A DNA stretch of 64,000 nucleotides from Roseibacillus ishigakijimensis (GTDB lineage: Bacteria; Verrucomicrobiota; Verrucomicrobiia; Verrucomicrobiales; Akkermansiaceae), in assembly GCF_016595415.1 (NCBI RefSeq), contig NZ_JAENIO010000015.1, positions 1-64,000 of the forward strand. The letters are read 5' to 3'. The notes beneath the pieces were generated by a model. It did not search any database and was not told the origin of the DNA. It worked only from the letters and a program-made list of their open reading frames with translations. This document shows, in pieces, positions 24,515 through 35,025 of this stretch. The first letter of the stretch is position 1, and every line of letters starts with the position of its first letter. The translations under genes and the position numbers were made by a program.

Positions 24515-25558
24515 ATGACGGCAAAACCTTACGGAACTCTCTCAAACGGTCGCGAGGCCACCCTTTTCACGCTCACCAACAAGAACGGAATGGAGGCGAA
24601 AGTCACCGACTACGGGGCCATTCTGGTTGGCGTGTTGGTGCCAGACAAAGATGGCACCAGCAAGGACGTCACTCTCGGTTTCGATGACCTCGCGGGCTGG
24701 GAGCAGGACACCTGTTACCTCGGAGCTACCGTGGGCCGCTTCGGCAACCGCATTGCACACGGGAAGTTCTCCCTCGATGGCAAAGACTACCAGATGGTGC
24801 TCAACAACGAGCCCAACGGCGTTCCCTGCCACCTTCACGGCGGCACCGTCGGGTTCAATTCCGTCCTCTGGGAAAGCCGGGAAATCGAGAATGGCGTCGA
24901 GTTCACCTACCTTTCTGCCGACGGCGAAGAAGGCTACCCGGGCGAAGTGACCGCCAAAGTGCGCTACCTCCTCACCGATGACAACGAGCTCATCTGGCAA
25001 GCGGAAGCCACCACCACCGCCGCCACGCCCCTGAACATGGTTCATCACAGCTACTGGAATCTCTCGGGCGACAGCAGCCAACGCATCGAGAGCCAACGCT
25101 TGCAATTGGAGGCCGACCACTACCTCCCCACCGACCCCGGCCTCATCCCCACCGGGGAAGTCGCTCCCGTCGCAGGCACACCCCTGGACTTCCGCCAGGC
25201 CACCGTCATCGGAGAGCACATTGAGGATGACTTCGAGGCCCTCAAGTTCGCCGGAGGCTACGACCATGCTTGGGTGGTCAATGGCGAAGGCCTCCGCCTG
25301 GTGGCCACCCTGAGCGATCCCGCCAGCGGACGCAGCATGACCCTGCACAGCGAGCAACCGGCAGTTCACTTTTACGCGGGCAGTTTCCTGGAAAGCGCCG
25401 TGCCCGGCAAAAACGGGCAGCCTCTCCTCCCCCGCACCGGACTTTGTCTGGAGACTGAACTCTACCCCGATGGACCGAACAAGCCAGCCTTCCCCAACTG
25501 CATCCTGCGCCCCGGCGAAACCTACCGCCACACCATGGTGCACAAGTTCAGCTGGTGA
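24515..25558 (+). CDS. galM: Aldose 1-epimerase (mutarotase)
   Basis: A 347-residue galactose mutarotase. Visible signatures: GRFGNRIAHGKF at 74-85, LHGG with H108, the NMVHHSYWNL motif with catalytic acid H178, and ETELYPDGPN near 313 with the catalytic base Glu. It interconverts alpha and beta anomers of aldoses before metabolism, probably in the cytoplasm since no signal peptide is present from this start. The ATG at 24515 lies at the point where family similarity begins; the frame is open further upstream but out of homology. No sugar-catabolic genes are adjacent. Confidence 0.95.
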   Translation: MTAKPYGTLSNGREATLFTLTNKNGMEAKVTDYGAILVGVLVPDKDGTSKDVTLGFDDLAGWEQDTCYLGATVGRFGNRIAHGKFSLDGKDYQMVLNNEPNGVPCHLHGGTVGFNSVLWESREIENGVEFTYLSADGEEGYPGEVTAKVRYLLTDDNELIWQAEATTTAATPLNMVHHSYWNLSGDSSQRIESQRLQLEADHYLPTDPGLIPTGEVAPVAGTPLDFRQATVIGEHIEDDFEALKFAGGYDHAWVVNGEGLRLVATLSDPASGRSMTLHSEQPAVHFYAGSFLESAVPGKNGQPLLPRTGLCLETELYPDGPNKPAFPNCILRPGETYRHTMVHKFSW

Positions 25559-25642
25559 GGCTCTTCCCGCCATCAAGTTCGTAAAGGGCCGCAGACTTGA
25601 GCTCACCCAGTGGCTTCCCCAGCACCTCCCCTGCAACCGAAG

Positions 25643-26230
25643 ATGAAACGAAAACTCCGCAGATTCATGCTTTGGTCCGCTGGGGGCCTCCTTCTTTGGG
25701 TCCTCTTCGTTGCAGTCTCCATTTGGAGCCATGGGAACAAGGACTTCGCCCAAAAATCCGACTGCCTCATCGTCCTCGGTGCCGCCGTCCAAGGCGAACA
25801 ACCCTCTCCGGTATTCGAAGAGCGCATTCAGCATGGACTCACGCTATTCAGGGCAGATATGGCCCCGATCCTCATCTTCACGGGGGGCTTCGGACCGGGA
25901 GCGAGCCATGCCGAAAGCGAAGTCGCGGCCTCCTATGCGCAGGCAAGCGGCATCCCCGAGGACGCCATCCTGACGGAGAACCGCTCTCGCACCACGAGCC
26001 AGAATCTGGCCCAAGCCTAGGCTCTCATGAATGCGGCGGGGCTGAAATCTGCCATCATCGTGAGTGATCCCTTGCATCTCAAGCGCGCTTCCCTGATGGC
26101 CAAAGACCTTGGCATCCGGTCCGTCACCTCACCCACGCCCACCTCCCGCTACCGCTCCCTTAAAACAAAACTCCCCTTTCTCCAGCGCGAAATCTACTTC
26201 TATCATCACTACGCGATAACGGGCCATTGA
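25643..26230 (+). pseudogene. DUF218 (YdcF/SanA-like) gene interrupted by an in-frame amber codon
   Basis: A gene for a roughly 195-residue envelope protein: basic N-terminus, membrane anchor (about 9-27), and a DUF218 domain with CLIVLGAAV, the ILIFTGGFGPG stretch, an EDAILTENRSRTTSQNLAQA motif and, after the break, AIIVSDPLHLKRASLMA. A TAG at 26018-26020 (codon 126) stops translation just after SQNLAQA. The frame continues without shift for another 70 codons and carries the rest of the domain, so a single base change (for example from CAG, AAG or TGG) explains it. It may be a recent pseudogene, a sequencing error or a read-through case. Confidence 0.8.
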
Positions 26231-26415: not shown

Positions 26416-28956
26416 ATGCGACCGCTTACCCTACTCACCCTCGCCCTGGGCAGCCTCTGCGCTGCTGGAGAGCAGATCGATCTCGTCACTCTAGGCGAGG
26501 AAACCTTCTCCAGCCTCGGCTGCATCGAGTGCCACTCGGTCTTGCCCGACGACTCCTCGGTCAAGACTGGCCCGGGACTTTACGGACTCTTCCAAAAAGA
26601 GGCGCGCGACCATCGCGTGCAGGCGGCGGACGCGAAAAAAGAAGTCACCGCCGACCGCGCCTTCCTCCTCCGCTCCTTGCGCGAGCCCACCGCCGAGCTG
26701 GCGCTGAAGGATGAGAACGAGGCCTATCTGCCGGTGATGCCGCCTTACAACGAGCAACTGCTCCCCAACCAAAAAGTCGAAGCTCTCTTCGCCTACCTCC
26801 AGACCCTCAACGACCCGGCCCAGGCGGGTCCAAGTGAGGTGCTGGTCGAGAAAGTCGGCGAAGCAGACCAAGGGGGCGCCCTTGCCGATGCGGCGGAAAT
26901 CCTCGTCACCGATCGCACCCGCATCTTCCGCGCCCGCCTCGGCAAGACCTCGGCCCGCGCAGTCCACGTGGGCACTCCAGTCGGCATCAATTACAGCTTT
27001 GATCCCCGCACCCTTTCCATTGAACGCCTCTGGTGGGGCGGCTTTCTCAATCTGCGCGAAGAGCTCTCCGGTCGGGCCGGCAAGGTCTCGCGCCTCGGGG
27101 AGCAAGCACAGGAGGTGGAGCTGGGCGGCTCTCTCCTCGCCCCCCTCGACCCCGCCACCGGCCAGCCCATCGACCTTTCTTTCAAGTCCCCGACCCACGC
27201 CGATGAGCAACAAATCATTGCCAACATGAAGGGCGCGGCGGAGTTTCTCGATCAACTGGCCGAAGCCTCCGGGCACTTTCTTGGCTACGAAGAGGGCGAG
27301 GCTCCGACCTTCGTCTACCGGGTGGGAGCCAACACCTTCCAAGTCCGGCTTGCCATCAACGCCGAGGGCGCGGCCAAGCTGACCTTGCAAGGGCAGCTGA
27401 CCCATCCCCAGACCTTCCGCCTCTCCCCACTCATTCGCGGACAGGCCGAGGACTGGACCGTGCGCCAACTCCCCGCCGAGCTGACCTTTCAAGTTCCCGT
27501 CAAGCCCGCCTGGCGTCCCTGGGAAGCCCAAAGCCAACGCGAACCCCAGGCGGTGGTCACCTCCGCGCCCGACAAGCTGGTGCTCCCCACCGGCTACGGC
27601 GCGGAAGTCATCCAACCCCCTCTCGACGTCAATGGCCGCCGCCAGCTCTTCGAGCCCATGGGCATGGCCGAGACCGCCGAGGGAGCCCTCATCGTCTCCA
27701 CCCGCACCGCCGGACTTTGGAAGTTGCAAAATGGCCAATGGCAGCAAATTGCCGAAGGCCTTCTCGATGCCCTGGGCCTTGTGGTGGAAGACGAAAACAC
27801 CCTCGTGGTGGGGCAAAAACCCGAACTGACCCGCCTGCGCGACACCGATGGCGACGGCTGGATGGACCGCTACGAAACCCTCTGCGACGACTTCCTCTTC
27901 ACCCACAACTACCACGAATATCTCCACGGCCCAACCCGTGGCGCGGATGGCAACTACTACATCCAGCTCAATCTCGGTCACCGCGGCAACCCCAAGAATA
28001 ACCACATGGCTGGCGGCAAGTTCATGGGCACCCAGGGGGGGCTGCGGGCCTGGGCCTTGCAGGTGACACCCGAGGGCCAGATGACCCCCTTTGCCAATGG
28101 TCTGCGCAGCCCCGCCGGACTCGCTACCGGCCCCGATGGGCGGCTCTACTACACCGAGAACCAAGGAGAATACGTGGGCACTTCCAAGCTCTTCGTGCTG
28201 GAGAAAGACAAGTTCTATGGCCACCCCGCCAGCCTCATCGATCTGCCCGGCCGCCATCCCGACTCCCCGGAGATCGCTTGGGAAAAAGTCCAGCAGAGCA
28301 AGGAAAAAGCCCTCGCTCTGATGCCGCATTCCCGCCTCGCCAATGCTCCCGGCAGCCCGGCCTGGGCTCCCGCCGAGAGCGATTTCGCGCGCTTTGCCGG
28401 CCACATGTTCGTGGGCGACCAGACCCTCTCGCAAATTTTCCGCATTTTACCCAAGGAAGACCACGAGGCGGCCCTCATTCCCTTCGCCCACGGCTTCGCC
28501 TCCGGGGTCATGCGCCTGCACTTTGCTTCCGACGGCAGCCTCTTGGTGGGCCAGACCGGACGCGGCTGGCGCGCCCAGGGGGGCTCCGAGGACGGACTGG
28601 TCCGCCTTTCCCGCGCGGAGGAGTCCCTCAGCAACGAGCTCCTCGACCTCACCCGCGAGGGGGCAACCTTTACCCTCCACTTCGCCGAAGCCCTGGCCCA
28701 AGCCCCCGCCGCCGAGGCTCTGACCGTCCAGAGCTGGGAATACCACGACAGCCCTGACTACGGCTCCAAGGAGCTACGCAAGACCGATTGGAAGATTACC
28801 CGAGTCTCTCTGGGAGAAAACCGCCGACAACTGCAGGTGACCCTGCGCGAGCTCACCCCCCCGGAGGACAATCGCGTTTTTGCCCTGGAGAGCAAAAGCC
28901 TGCCCGGCACCAAAGGCGATCTCCTGCAGGCCTACTACTCGCAAACCGTGCGCTGA
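26416..28956 (+). CDS. Secreted c-type cytochrome/beta-propeller protein (PVC-type)
   Basis: An 846-residue exported protein. Signal peptide at 1-18; single haem site CIECH at residues 36-40 in an N-terminal cytochrome c domain of about 120 residues; a middle beta-rich region (150-380); and a propeller domain (about 390-760) with glucose/sorbosone dehydrogenase-like repeats, including LRSPAGLATGPDGRLYYTENQGEYVG and a GDGWMDRYETL calcium-loop-like stretch. Proteins with this combination are abundant in Planctomycetes and Verrucomicrobia and are thought to oxidise carbohydrates in the periplasm; the substrate is unknown. It starts 185 bases after the broken DUF218 gene and is followed by a strong terminator-like hairpin. 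Confidence 0.88.
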   Translation: MRPLTLLTLALGSLCAAGEQIDLVTLGEETFSSLGCIECHSVLPDDSSVKTGPGLYGLFQKEARDHRVQAADAKKEVTADRAFLLRSLREPTAELALKDENEAYLPVMPPYNEQLLPNQKVEALFAYLQTLNDPAQAGPSEVLVEKVGEADQGGALADAAEILVTDRTRIFRARLGKTSARAVHVGTPVGINYSFDPRTLSIERLWWGGFLNLREELSGRAGKVSRLGEQAQEVELGGSLLAPLDPATGQPIDLSFKSPTHADEQQIIANMKGAAEFLDQLAEASGHFLGYEEGEAPTFVYRVGANTFQVRLAINAEGAAKLTLQGQLTHPQTFRLSPLIRGQAEDWTVRQLPAELTFQVPVKPAWRPWEAQSQREPQAVVTSAPDKLVLPTGYGAEVIQPPLDVNGRRQLFEPMGMAETAEGALIVSTRTAGLWKLQNGQWQQIAEGLLDALGLVVEDENTLVVGQKPELTRLRDTDGDGWMDRYETLCDDFLFTHNYHEYLHGPTRGADGNYYIQLNLGHRGNPKNNHMAGGKFMGTQGGLRAWALQVTPEGQMTPFANGLRSPAGLATGPDGRLYYTENQGEYVGTSKLFVLEKDKFYGHPASLIDLPGRHPDSPEIAWEKVQQSKEKALALMPHSRLANAPGSPAWAPAESDFARFAGHMFVGDQTLSQIFRILPKEDHEAALIPFAHGFASGVMRLHFASDGSLLVGQTGRGWRAQGGSEDGLVRLSRAEESLSNELLDLTREGATFTLHFAEALAQAPAAEALTVQSWEYHDSPDYGSKELRKTDWKITRVSLGENRRQLQVTLRELTPPEDNRVFALESKSLPGTKGDLLQAYYSQTVR

Positions 28957-29060: not shown

Positions 29061-29081
29061 ATCCCCTTAACCCATCTTCCC

Positions 29082-30149
29082 ATGCCCAAAGTCCGCCTCT
29101 CTGGAACCGTCCTCGGCCCCGAGGACCCTAGCCGCTCTGCCCGCGCCCGCCTGCTTTTCCACCTCTTCAATGCCGGTTGGGATATCTACAATTCCAATGG
29201 CGACCAACAAATCACCCTCGCCAATATCGAGGAGAAAATCATCGAATCCGACGCCTTTGTCTTCACCCCCGGCGCCAGCTTGCAAGACCTCTTCAAGGCC
29301 ATCTCGGTCTTTGTCGGCTACCAGACCCTCGACAAGAATCTCGCCAACAAACCTACTGTCATCCTCAACGACGACGGCTCTTGGGACCCGCTCTTTCGCC
29401 TCCTGGAGCATCTCCACGACCGCGGCACGGTGAGGCAGAATTACCGCGACTACCTCCTCATCGTCGACAGTCCCTCCGGGGTGGTGAAGGCCTTGGAAGA
29501 ATTCCGCGACAAAGGACTCCCCCCCATCGATCGGGAAGCCATCGAGGATCATCCCCAGCTCCCCGCCGACGCCAAGACCCCACCCCCGACCGATCTGCAG
29601 GGGCGGGTCTGCGTTTTCTGCTCCGCCACTATCGAGAAAGAAGGCTACCTCGCCGATGGCGAAGAGCTGGGCCGGCAACTGGCAGAGCACAAGCTCGGCT
29701 GTGTCTCCGGAGCGGGCAAATCCGGCGTCATGGGTGCCGTGGTGCGCGGCTCGGTCGCCGCCGGCGGCTGGACGGCGGGCTCCAATGTCCCCCACATCAT
29801 TCGCTTGGAGGGGCTCCCCGAAGGACTCTCCTACTTCTGGTTACGTGACGACATCTACACTCGCATGGAGGTGATGATCGAGAACTCCGAAGCCTTCGTC
29901 ATCTTCCCCGGCGGCTCGGGCACCGTGCAGGAGCTCCTCGCTCTCATGATTTTCCTCGAACAAGGCGATGCCATGATGAAAGGCAAGCCCGTGGTCATCT
30001 TCAACCGCCGGGACCAAGACGGCATCGCCTTCTGGGATCCATTGATCAAACTGCTCGAGAACTACTGCTGCCAAGAGCAATTCACCGTCGTCGACGACCT
30101 CCACGCCATCGTGCCTACGATTGAAGAAAAACTCGCTCGGCAGGAATGA
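29082..30149 (+). CDS. Two-domain LOG-family (TIGR00730-like) Rossmann protein
   Basis: A 355-residue cytoplasmic protein. The C-terminal half (about 174-350) is a LOG-type domain related to cytokinin riboside phosphohydrolases: SGAGKSGVMGAVVRG at 209-223 and PGGSGTVQE at 276-284, the nucleotide-binding motif. The N-terminal half (1-145) repeats the same order in degenerate form: SDAFVFTPGASLQDL (56-70) against SEAFVIFPGGSGTVQEL, then KPTVILN and DPLFRLLEHL (102-111) against KPVVIFN and DPLIKLLENY (319-328). So the gene appears to be a fused internal duplication in which the first copy lost the PGGxGT motif. Function unknown; nucleotide N-glycosidase activity is known for the family. Confidence 0.8.
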   Translation: MPKVRLSGTVLGPEDPSRSARARLLFHLFNAGWDIYNSNGDQQITLANIEEKIIESDAFVFTPGASLQDLFKAISVFVGYQTLDKNLANKPTVILNDDGSWDPLFRLLEHLHDRGTVRQNYRDYLLIVDSPSGVVKALEEFRDKGLPPIDREAIEDHPQLPADAKTPPPTDLQGRVCVFCSATIEKEGYLADGEELGRQLAEHKLGCVSGAGKSGVMGAVVRGSVAAGGWTAGSNVPHIIRLEGLPEGLSYFWLRDDIYTRMEVMIENSEAFVIFPGGSGTVQELLALMIFLEQGDAMMKGKPVVIFNRRDQDGIAFWDPLIKLLENYCCQEQFTVVDDLHAIVPTIEEKLARQE

Positions 30150-30808: not shown

Positions 30809-33037
<2,229 letters not shown>

Positions 33038-33070: not shown

Positions 33071-34423
33071 ATGAAACTCCGCGGATGCCTCTTGAAAGAC
33101 CTGCCACCCTTTGGGGAGCAGGCCATGGAATTCCCGGAGCTTCCGGCGGGGGCCCAAGGGGCTGAGATTCACTTCATCACCGGCGTCAACGGTGCGGGAA
33201 AGACGCGGTTTTTGAGTGTCTTGGAAGCGGCGTTGGGGAATTCAAGTGATCTTGATGCAAGGACTAAAGATCGTGCCAGTGTTGGAGTTTGGGGACAGGT
33301 TGACGATTTTGATGAAAATGATCCAACCTACCGATGGTCAAACGGTGCCACCCTCCTCAAAACTACGTTGGGATTCAACTTTAACAAAAACGAACCTGAT
33401 TTCTCGGCGTTTCGCGAGCATCAAATCGGCGATGAAGTTGTCGACTCACAACTAATAATTAATCCAACAACCGGTAGAAGAATTCACAAACTTGATTTTT
33501 CTATTATCGAAGGAGTTTTCGCTCTTTCCTTCCGCGGTAGCCTGAAAATCACCAACTCGTCCATTCAAGCACAAGCCCCAGTTAAGCTTGGCTCGCTAAC
33601 AGACCACCTCTCCTTAAACCAAAGGCCCGAGGGCGAGTCCCAGATGATCGCGCAGGCGCTGGCGAACATCGTTTCGATGGGGTCACAGGAGGTGATGCAA
33701 GAAATCACCGATGGACGCTACGGGGCCCTTCTCAAGAAAGTGAACAAGGTCCTAGGCGACTTTCTCAAGCGCAAGACCGCTTTTTTCGTCGATAGCCGAC
33801 GGGAAAGAATCGCGCTCAAGGTCCTTCTCGGCTCCGAACGCATCGACCTCGATCATCTCCCCGACGGCTTGCGCTCGATCATTGCCTGGCTCTTTGCCAC
33901 CATCGCCAAGCTTGAGGTGGCTTTTCCCGATGATTCGGACCCACTGGAGCGCGAGTTTATCATGATTCTCGATGAGCCGGAGACCCACCTCCACCCGGCT
34001 TGGCAACGCTACGTGCTCCGCATTGCACAGGAGCTTTTCCCCAATGCCCAGTTCATCGTAGCCACCCATTCCCCTTTCATCATCTCCAGCATCAACCGCG
34101 GTTGGATTCACATCCTCAACACCTGTGAGGACGACGGTCTCGTCTACTTCGGTGAACCCCAGCCGTGTAGCGAAGGCGACACCTACATGGATGCGGTGGA
34201 AGATGTCCTGGGGATCAAAGAACTCTACGATCCGGAAACCGAAGACCTCCTCGCCCAGTTCCGGGAACTGCGTCAGCAAGTTCTCAGCAACGGCTTTGAG
34301 GGGGAAACCGAATTGCGCAGCTTAATGATGAAGATTGGAGCGCGCAGCAAGTCACTGGAAAATATGATGGGGCGCGAACTCTTCCAGCTCGACAAAGCCA
34401 AGCAAATGGCGGCGGCGTCATGA
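33071..34423 (+). CDS. Septu-like defence ATPase (PtuA-like)
   Basis: A 450-residue AAA_21-type ATPase. Walker A GVNGAGKT at residues 38-45; Walker B FIMILDEPETHLHP with D301-E302; a following FIVATHSPFIISS switch motif. Immediately downstream, sharing an ATGA, is a small HNH nuclease gene; this ATPase-HNH pair is the composition of the Septu anti-phage system (PtuA/PtuB). The stretch 33235-33610 (about residues 55-180) is clearly AT-richer and uses different codons than the flanks, hinting at acquisition or domain replacement. Assignment to Septu rests on architecture; similar pairs occur with retrons, but no reverse transcriptase is present. Confidence 0.8.
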   Translation: MKLRGCLLKDLPPFGEQAMEFPELPAGAQGAEIHFITGVNGAGKTRFLSVLEAALGNSSDLDARTKDRASVGVWGQVDDFDENDPTYRWSNGATLLKTTLGFNFNKNEPDFSAFREHQIGDEVVDSQLIINPTTGRRIHKLDFSIIEGVFALSFRGSLKITNSSIQAQAPVKLGSLTDHLSLNQRPEGESQMIAQALANIVSMGSQEVMQEITDGRYGALLKKVNKVLGDFLKRKTAFFVDSRRERIALKVLLGSERIDLDHLPDGLRSIIAWLFATIAKLEVAFPDDSDPLEREFIMILDEPETHLHPAWQRYVLRIAQELFPNAQFIVATHSPFIISSINRGWIHILNTCEDDGLVYFGEPQPCSEGDTYMDAVEDVLGIKELYDPETEDLLAQFRELRQQVLSNGFEGETELRSLMMKIGARSKSLENMMGRELFQLDKAKQMAAAS

Positions 34424-35025
34424 GAAAGCAAGTCCGCCCCCCAGCCCCCGACGTCTTCCAGAAGCACGCCGACTCTTGGAACGCCCGCTGGGTGGCCCTG
34501 CGAGCGAAGAACCCCAGCGCCCGCTTCAGTTGGTATTCGGCCGAGGGCCAAACCGCCCGCGACTGGGCTTTGCCCGCTCTCAAGGTAATGAATCAGGGGC
34601 ACTGCTCATTCTGCGACAACTTTCCTCTGGATGCTGGCGATCACCCAATCGAACACCTTCGCCCCAAAACCCATCCTGACTACCAGCACTTGGCCTATGC
34701 TTGGGAGAATCTCTACTACTGCTGCACCACCTCCTGCAACGGCTTCAAGCGGGAGCGATTCGACGAGGAGGTTCTCAGCCCTGACGCGGACGATTTTGAG
34801 CCTTTGCGCTACTTCTATTTTGACACCACCACTGGCGAAGTATTGCCACACCCGTCCGCCTCGGCAGCGAACCAAAAGCGAGCGAAAGTCACCATCGACC
34901 TCTTTGGACTGAACAAAGACGAACGCCCCAAGCTCCGCCGCTTGGAAATCCAAAAATGGGCCGGACAGCAAGAGAACAGCAACTTAAACGTGGACGATTT
35001 TGGCTATCGTGAGTTTCTGGCCTGA
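34420..35025 (+). CDS. HNH endonuclease of the Septu-like pair (PtuB-like)
   Basis: A 201-residue protein. It shows the HNH/zinc arrangement of PtuB/TIGR02646 proteins: CSFC (C62, C65), HPIEHLRPK (E78, H79 as the core His), then WENLYYCCTTSCNGFK with N97, C102/C106, N107. The four cysteines probably bind a structural zinc around the beta-beta-alpha metal nuclease site. In Septu systems the ATPase and this nuclease form a complex that degrades DNA during phage infection. It starts inside the last codons of the ATPase gene (ATGA). The pair sits between housekeeping genes for IDH and IMPase. Confidence 0.8.
   Translation: MRKQVRPPAPDVFQKHADSWNARWVALRAKNPSARFSWYSAEGQTARDWALPALKVMNQGHCSFCDNFPLDAGDHPIEHLRPKTHPDYQHLAYAWENLYYCCTTSCNGFKRERFDEEVLSPDADDFEPLRYFYFDTTTGEVLPHPSASAANQKRAKVTIDLFGLNKDERPKLRRLEIQKWAGQQENSNLNVDDFGYREFLA

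Follow-up and report, generated by a model that had tools for sequence, protein, structure and literature searches.

LOG proteins are described as homodimers, or as hexamers of dimers, with pockets formed between subunits. CgLOG is a homodimer in which Glu125 and Trp129 are supplied by the neighbouring molecule, and its dimer interface is made chiefly of helices 5 and 6 and part of helix 4 (PMC4979012). The same source proposes Arg99 and Glu122 as catalytic residues, assigns phosphate binding to the PGGxGT loop, and gives Met96, His97, Lys100, Glu125 and Trp129 as the residues of the prenyl pocket (PMC4979012). Cg1261 departs from CgLOG at three of these five positions, yet made isopentenyladenine, and its Lys156 and Glu181 are the counterparts of CgLOG Lys100 and Glu125 (PMC5379747). 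In the nucleosidase PpnN, the PAG2 domain has helices and strands in common with the second monomer of the LOG dimer and may gate the active site, and the authors of that work suggested that duplication of the gene of a simpler enzyme could have given rise to the PAG gating domains (PMC6717881). A half-dead tandem chain differs from these LOG arrangements, and among the best-ranked titles of a literature search that covered few subscription papers, none dealt with a tandem or half-dead LOG.

A gene predicted to encode such a chain is found at 29082..30149 (plus strand) of the window, a 64,000 nt stretch of the Roseibacillus ishigakijimensis contig NZ_JAENIO010000015.1 (positions 1 to 64,000). 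It is an open frame of 355 aa plus stop, with 38 relatives, and the start was placed at ATG 29082 because most aligned relatives open with MPxVRLSG. The whole protein matches PF03641 with 95.2 bits (curated cut-off 27), and each half alone is also above this cut-off (N-half, residues 1–173, 32.2 bits; C-half 66.3 bits). The TIGR00730 cut-off of 96.35 bits is exceeded by the whole protein (118.2) and by the C-half alone (97.8), while the N-half alone scores 24.1. PF03641 and PF18306 are the only Pfam families matched at E ≤ 1. The protein falls below the cut-offs of the NCBIfam cytokinin equivalog NF058542 (84.9 against 300 bits), the PpnN model NF038390 (36.4 against 450) and TIGR00725, the model for Moco carriers (18.5 against 106.9), and no PADLOC defence model matches it at E ≤ 1.

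An earlier note on this DNA had read the gene as two tandem LOG copies with a shared order of motifs. The order is as claimed, with SDAFV (residues 56–60), PGAS (63–66), KPTVILN (90–96) and DPLFRLLE (102–109) in the N-half answered by SEAFV (269–273), PGGS (276–279), KPVVIFN (302–308) and DPLIKLLE (319–326) in the C-half, that is, residues 56–109 versus 269–326. The presence of two copies is borne out by PF03641 in each half, by profile comparison and by predicted folds, which all agree. The N-terminal domain, residues 1–146 (29082..29519, plus strand), carries the 32.2-bit PF03641 match, and the family was matched at E ≤ 1 in all 32 N-halves scanned (best E-value 3e-8). Comparison of the N- and C-half profiles by hhalign gave P = 6.9e-10 over 84 columns, against a best P of 0.03 in 20 column-shuffled controls; at the level of sequence profiles, the likeness of the two halves is not due to chance. 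The N-half profile also matches single-domain LOG-type frames of 196–273 aa in 11 of 387 genomes (E-values 4e-9 to 1.2e-4).

The AlphaFold2 model of the full chain has a pLDDT of 90.2 and a pTM of 0.90 (36 aligned sequences). Modelled alone, the N-half gave a best pLDDT of 77.7 and pTM of 0.76, with the five models ranging down to a pLDDT of 49.0. The inputs were shallow, at 36 related rows for the full chain and 32 for the N-half; alignment A1 consisted of the window and 35 of the 38 loci (without L013, L026 and L040), and alignment A2 of the window and 31 of the 38. In VIA, the best match of the N-half model (residues 1–150) was 5zbl_C (Z 14.2, rmsd 2.6, 137 aligned), and ranks 1–15 were all LOG-type structures (Z 14.2–12.4), followed by PpnN, TM1055 and Moco carriers or other SLOG proteins (Z 10.4–9.2), with other folds at Z ≤ 8.9. 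Foldseek likewise placed LOG-type chains at ranks 1–18 (E-values 1.2e-5 to 3.8e-4). For the full-chain model, the best VIA match of the C-half was 3qua_A (Z 25.3, residues 171–352, rmsd 1.6, 171 aligned). Both halves, then, match LOG structures in the comparison that the earlier note had proposed, and the result it had named as telling against its reading, an unrelated fold for the N-half, did not appear, since prediction of this half alone gives a LOG fold. By these models, the N-terminal copy is a LOG domain in shortened form, and two LOG-fold copies are shown in one 355-aa chain.

The C-terminal copy, residues 173–355 (29598..30146, plus strand; TIGR00730 97.8 bits, VIA Z 25.3), is a complete LOG domain. 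Residue counts given here are for 48 distinct sequences out of 56, taken from BLAST matches after exclusion of four loci that belong to the genome of the window. The 48 include L040 and L071, both gapped in the N-half and left out of the sets of 46 proteins. L071 is a fragment, and the tandem relative at L040, in a metagenome-assembled genome (JAURPJ010000126.1), stops after 86 residues, either as a pseudogene or through sequencing error. Numbering against CgLOG is by alignment to LOGs for the C-half, and through the N–C alignment for the N-half. The C-half carries both PGGxGTxxE and the catalytic Arg/Glu pair. R261, the catalytic Arg (29862..29864, plus strand), and E284, the catalytic Glu within PGGSGTVQE (residues 276–284; 29907..29933, plus strand), are each present in 48/48 sequences, as is Q283, and G280 and T281 are found in 47/48 and 46/48. 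A287 (29940..29942, plus strand), which corresponds to the Glu125 that a CgLOG subunit lends to its partner, is Ala in every one of the 48.

The N-half lacks this combination. In the hhalign register, N48 (29223..29225, plus strand) stands where LOGs have their catalytic Arg (Arg99 in CgLOG) and is Asn in 47/48 sequences, with one gap. PGASLQD (29268..29288, plus strand) is, in the same register, the remnant of PGGxGTxxE minus two residues, and its Asp69, at the place of the catalytic Glu, is Asp in 46/48 (Glu in one, gap in one). Among sequences with a residue at these positions, Arg has become Asn in 47/47 and Glu has become Asp in 46/47, the latter a conservative change. A larger loss lies between strand 2 and the catalytic-Arg helix, a stretch of 48 residues in the C-half (210–257; 29709..29852, plus strand), with a glycine-rich loop and two strands, and of only 12 in the N-half (37–48). 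According to DSSP of the full model, about 36 residues, including that loop and both strands, are missing from the N-half, and the remaining strands and helices follow an identical order in the two halves. With the Arg, the loop residues and the glycine-rich segment all lost, cleavage of nucleotides by the N-half is very unlikely, and its sequence strongly supports a catalytically dead domain. Loss of catalysis had been suggested in the earlier note from PGAS in place of PGGSGT; to this can be added the Arg to Asn change, the missing loop residues and the shortened stretch.

Judged by its sequences, the N-half is not decaying, and its conservation comes close to that of the live half, with mean column values of 0.764 against 0.781 in the C-half (46 proteins) and a mean pairwise identity of 68% against 70% (1035 pairs of the same 46). 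Invariant columns number 22/146 in the N-half and 53/180 in the C-half (48 sequences, two fragments included). The linker, residues 147–172 (29520..29597, plus strand), is variable, with a mean conservation of 0.54 and no invariant column. A highly conserved part of the N-half is formed by residues 66–84 (29277..29333, plus strand), where 10/19 columns are invariant compared to 22/127 in the rest of residues 1–146 (Fisher p 0.0016, for a stretch picked post hoc). In the alignment it corresponds to the helix and loop with which a LOG subunit extends into the active site of its partner, and it includes K72, which is Lys in 45/48 sequences, Gln in two and a gap in one.

The genome-contig scan found 38 relatives with 57–77% identity in the best segment, all 38 from Verrucomicrobiota by record title; it used exact peptide patterns and so captures close relatives only, and the profile searches stayed inside Verrucomicrobiota. 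The relatives come from Roseibacillus, Haloferula, Luteolibacter, Pelagicoccus, uncultured Akkermansiaceae, Terrimicrobiaceae, Spartobacteria and others. Strong matches to the N-half profile (E < 1e-18) occur in 12/387 Verrucomicrobiota genomes and sit in frames of at least 341 aa, except for a 61-aa frame in genome G268, where two pieces of the tandem gene lie on different contigs. Genomes G215 and G240 have two tandem copies each, and R. persicicus also carries two (L003 and L014); as the copies show the same identities, G240 may belong to this species. By the N-half profile, the tandem gene is absent from G237, which belongs to the same genus as the window, and from 19 listed genomes of group g2. 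A search of 72,556 plasmid records (E 1e-8) gave no match, and none of the 11 pattern matches in viral contigs is a relative of the tandem protein. The genome that contains the window is 95% complete and encodes another LOG-type protein, 367 aa long and extended at both ends, at G000:C115:184297-184599 (L086 973-2076). It is the only other PF03641 match there, and an ordinary LOG (about 200 aa) was not seen in that genome. Frames of 340–440 aa with PF03641 matches occur in many of the listed genomes of the class.

A phylogeny of both halves, as suggested in the earlier note, places the N-halves in one clade and the C-halves in another (86 rows: both halves of 20 of the 46 tandem proteins, plus 46 single LOGs), although a long-branch single LOG, L079, joins the C clade. 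Since each half forms one clade in these 20 of 46 proteins, the fusion looks like one event. A second tree, with 16 of the 46 tandem proteins and without six long-branch single LOGs (L073, L078, L079, L081, L111 and L112), joins the N and C clades with support of 96/69, a node that is not starred and carries a long-branch warning. This joining of sequences is compatible with internal duplication of one gene, the alternative being fusion of two LOGs.

Upstream of the tandem gene is an 846-aa protein (26416–28956, plus strand) with a DUF7133 match and, near its start, CIECH, which reads as a CxxCH haem-type motif. The next recognised gene downstream is that of a monomeric isocitrate dehydrogenase (30827–33037, plus strand; PF03971, 1278 bits). 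Beyond it are overlapping genes for a PtuA-like ATPase and a PtuB-like protein (33071–35025, plus strand; PDLC00281 8.6e-70, PDLC00351 1.5e-55), which match the PtuA/PtuB pair of the Septu anti-phage system. Nine window frames were compared with the loci of the relatives (tblastn, E 1e-15), many of which have flanks of only 1–5 kb. Outside the window's genome, isocitrate dehydrogenase recurs near the tandem gene only in the near relative L003, and a frame at 24542–25834, without a Pfam family, has a weak match (30%) in L024 and L025. As the neighbours do not recur in other loci, they give no function. Long minus-strand frames lying antisense to real genes (29067–29795, 30830–33031 and others) were not counted as genes.

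How the two halves are likely to be arranged is suggested by the elements that the N-half retains. Counterparts of the LOG dimer helices are kept, going by the order of elements, and in the model of the N-half alone residues 75–81 have a pLDDT below 50, as would follow if that helix depends on the C-half. The pTM of 0.90 for the full chain points the same way. Position 125 is Glu or Asp in 46/46 single-domain LOGs of Verrucomicrobiota (54 before copies and one short row, L113, were dropped). The tandem family has Ala there in 48/48 C-halves, and Lys (45), Gln (2) or a gap (1) in the N-halves. Such an asymmetry is what a protein with a single live site should show, and would fit a pseudo-dimer with one working site, in which Ala287 of the C-half would face the dead site and Lys72 of the N-half the live one. 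The models and alignments suggest that a LOG homodimer has likely been turned into a pseudo-dimer within one chain. The reading favoured here, with moderate confidence, is that of a single-chain LOG pseudo-dimer in which a live C-half nucleosidase is completed or capped by the dead N-half. We infer its geometry, the lending of residues, the activity of the C-half and the substrate as follows. The C-half would be a working nucleoside 5′-monophosphate N-glycosidase (phosphoribohydrolase). The N-half, a LOG copy that would have lost nucleotide binding and catalysis and kept its dimerisation helices, would occupy the place of the second subunit and complete or cap the single live active site. It would lend K72 and the conserved FVGYQTLD loop, replacing the Glu and the aromatic residue of the ordinary LOG partner. 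The changes in the base pocket suggest that the substrate would not be a cytokinin precursor but another nucleotide, probably, as for PpnN, a purine monophosphate, either ordinary or modified.

Tandem chains could still dimerise further, and the enzyme might instead be a canonical C–C homodimer, with the N-half lying at the periphery or serving regulation, for instance in building higher oligomers of the kind seen in type II LOGs, which form hexamers through an N-terminal helix (PMC5379747). This is unlikely, because a C–C pair would lend nothing acidic, position 287 being Ala in 48/48 C-halves where the single LOGs have Glu or Asp in 46/46. Prediction of the full chain at a pTM of 0.90, and the high conservation of the N-half stretch matching the partner-facing helix and loop, also speak against it. 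A LOG that activates cytokinins as other TIGR00730 proteins do, and differs from them only in domain organisation, would account for the TIGR00730 score (118.2 against 96.35 bits) and the invariant catalytic Arg and Glu, yet is improbable in view of the prenyl pocket. Met96, His97 and Lys100 of CgLOG are replaced by Ile, Tyr and Met in 48/48 C-halves; positions 125 and 129 are Ala and mostly Phe in the C-half, and Lys or Gln and Ile or Val in the N-half. Not one of the five CgLOG pocket residues is kept, counting partner residues from either half, which makes cytokinin activation less likely. The loss is not decisive, as pocket residues vary among working LOGs: they differ among LOGs with demonstrated cytokinin activity (PMC5379747), and the His97 and Trp129 positions vary in the single LOGs of Verrucomicrobiota too. 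However, Lys100 and Glu125 are both lost, though Cg1261 has counterparts of each (PMC5379747), and the NF058542 score (84.9) is far from the cut-off of 300. The least probable alternative is a wholly non-catalytic binder of a nucleotide or cofactor, of the SLOG sensor or molybdenum-cofactor carrier type, with both halves binding. Carriers and sensors use this fold too, the C-half in the full model is matched by Moco carriers at Z 21.8–19.6, a range that overlaps with that of the lower-ranked LOGs, and the beta3–beta4 stretch NVPHII is unlike that of ordinary LOGs. Against this, Arg261 and Glu284 are invariant (48/48), beyond the need of binding alone, and the best LOGs rank above the Moco carriers in both sequence and fold.

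Local likeness to PpnN also bears on the reaction of the putative pseudo-dimer. The C-half consensus has PDIxxRxE and IFPGGxGTxxELL, as does E. coli PpnN, and the C-half follows the pattern PDIxxR[LM]E with IFPGGxGTx[EQ]ELL (DDI for PDI in the window's copy), a pattern that is our own reading of one PpnN sequence rather than a published definition. Over residues 257–292, mean identity is 41% to E. coli PpnN versus 33% to single LOGs; for the window's own protein the values are 44% to PpnN and 42% to the best single LOG, while over the whole C-half single LOGs (28%) are closer than PpnN (22%), one PpnN sequence being used throughout. From the absence of the prenyl-pocket residues and this local likeness, a nucleosidase with a built-in dead partner is predicted, hydrolysing the N-glycosidic bond of a nucleoside 5′-monophosphate; the partner would be comparable to the gating domain of PpnN. 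An annotation of 'LOG family' or 'lysine decarboxylase' may mask an enzyme with a pocket unsuited to cytokinins.

The tandem protein shares the fold of both its halves with type I LOGs (CgLOG 5ITS/5ZBL, PaLOG 5ZBK and MmLOG 3SBX), and PGGxGTxxE with the catalytic Arg/Glu in its C-half only. It differs from them in having two copies per chain, one apparently dead, in the Gln for Glu121 and Ala for Glu125 of its C-half, and in a prenyl pocket that is changed throughout. Type II LOGs (CgLOGII 5WQ3, TtLOGII 1WEK) have the same catalytic fold and residues but form hexamers through an extra N-terminal helix, not a second LOG domain (PMC5379747). PpnN (YgdH of E. coli, 6GFL/6GFM) is alike in its LOG-like catalytic domain, similar active-site stretch and non-acidic position 125 (Tyr in PpnN), whereas its PAG1 and PAG2 domains lie before and after the catalytic domain, and the LOG-half partner of the tandem protein precedes the catalytic half. 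Classification of the tandem protein as a PpnN was rejected, given the NF038390 score (36.4 against 450 bits) and an N-half unlike PAG1 or PAG2: hhalign of the N-half against the PAG1 and PAG2 stretches of E. coli PpnN showed no similarity (P 0.16 and 0.14). No VIA row for the full model aligned the N-half to PAG2, which is uninformative as the domain order differs. A tentative and rather doubtful extension of the pseudo-dimer reading is that the protein is an independent counterpart of PpnN, with the dead LOG half as a built-in gate or sensor whose NSNGD and FVGYQTLD stretches bind an effector or close over the substrate. If true, it would be direct evidence for gating domains arising from a duplicated LOG-like unit. 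The tandem chain allows this duplication idea to be tested, as one half can be deleted or swapped while the other site stays unbroken. By analogy, and if the reading holds, the tandem protein would represent a simpler form of the PpnN-like idea, with a LOG half as the partner and the domains in the opposite order.
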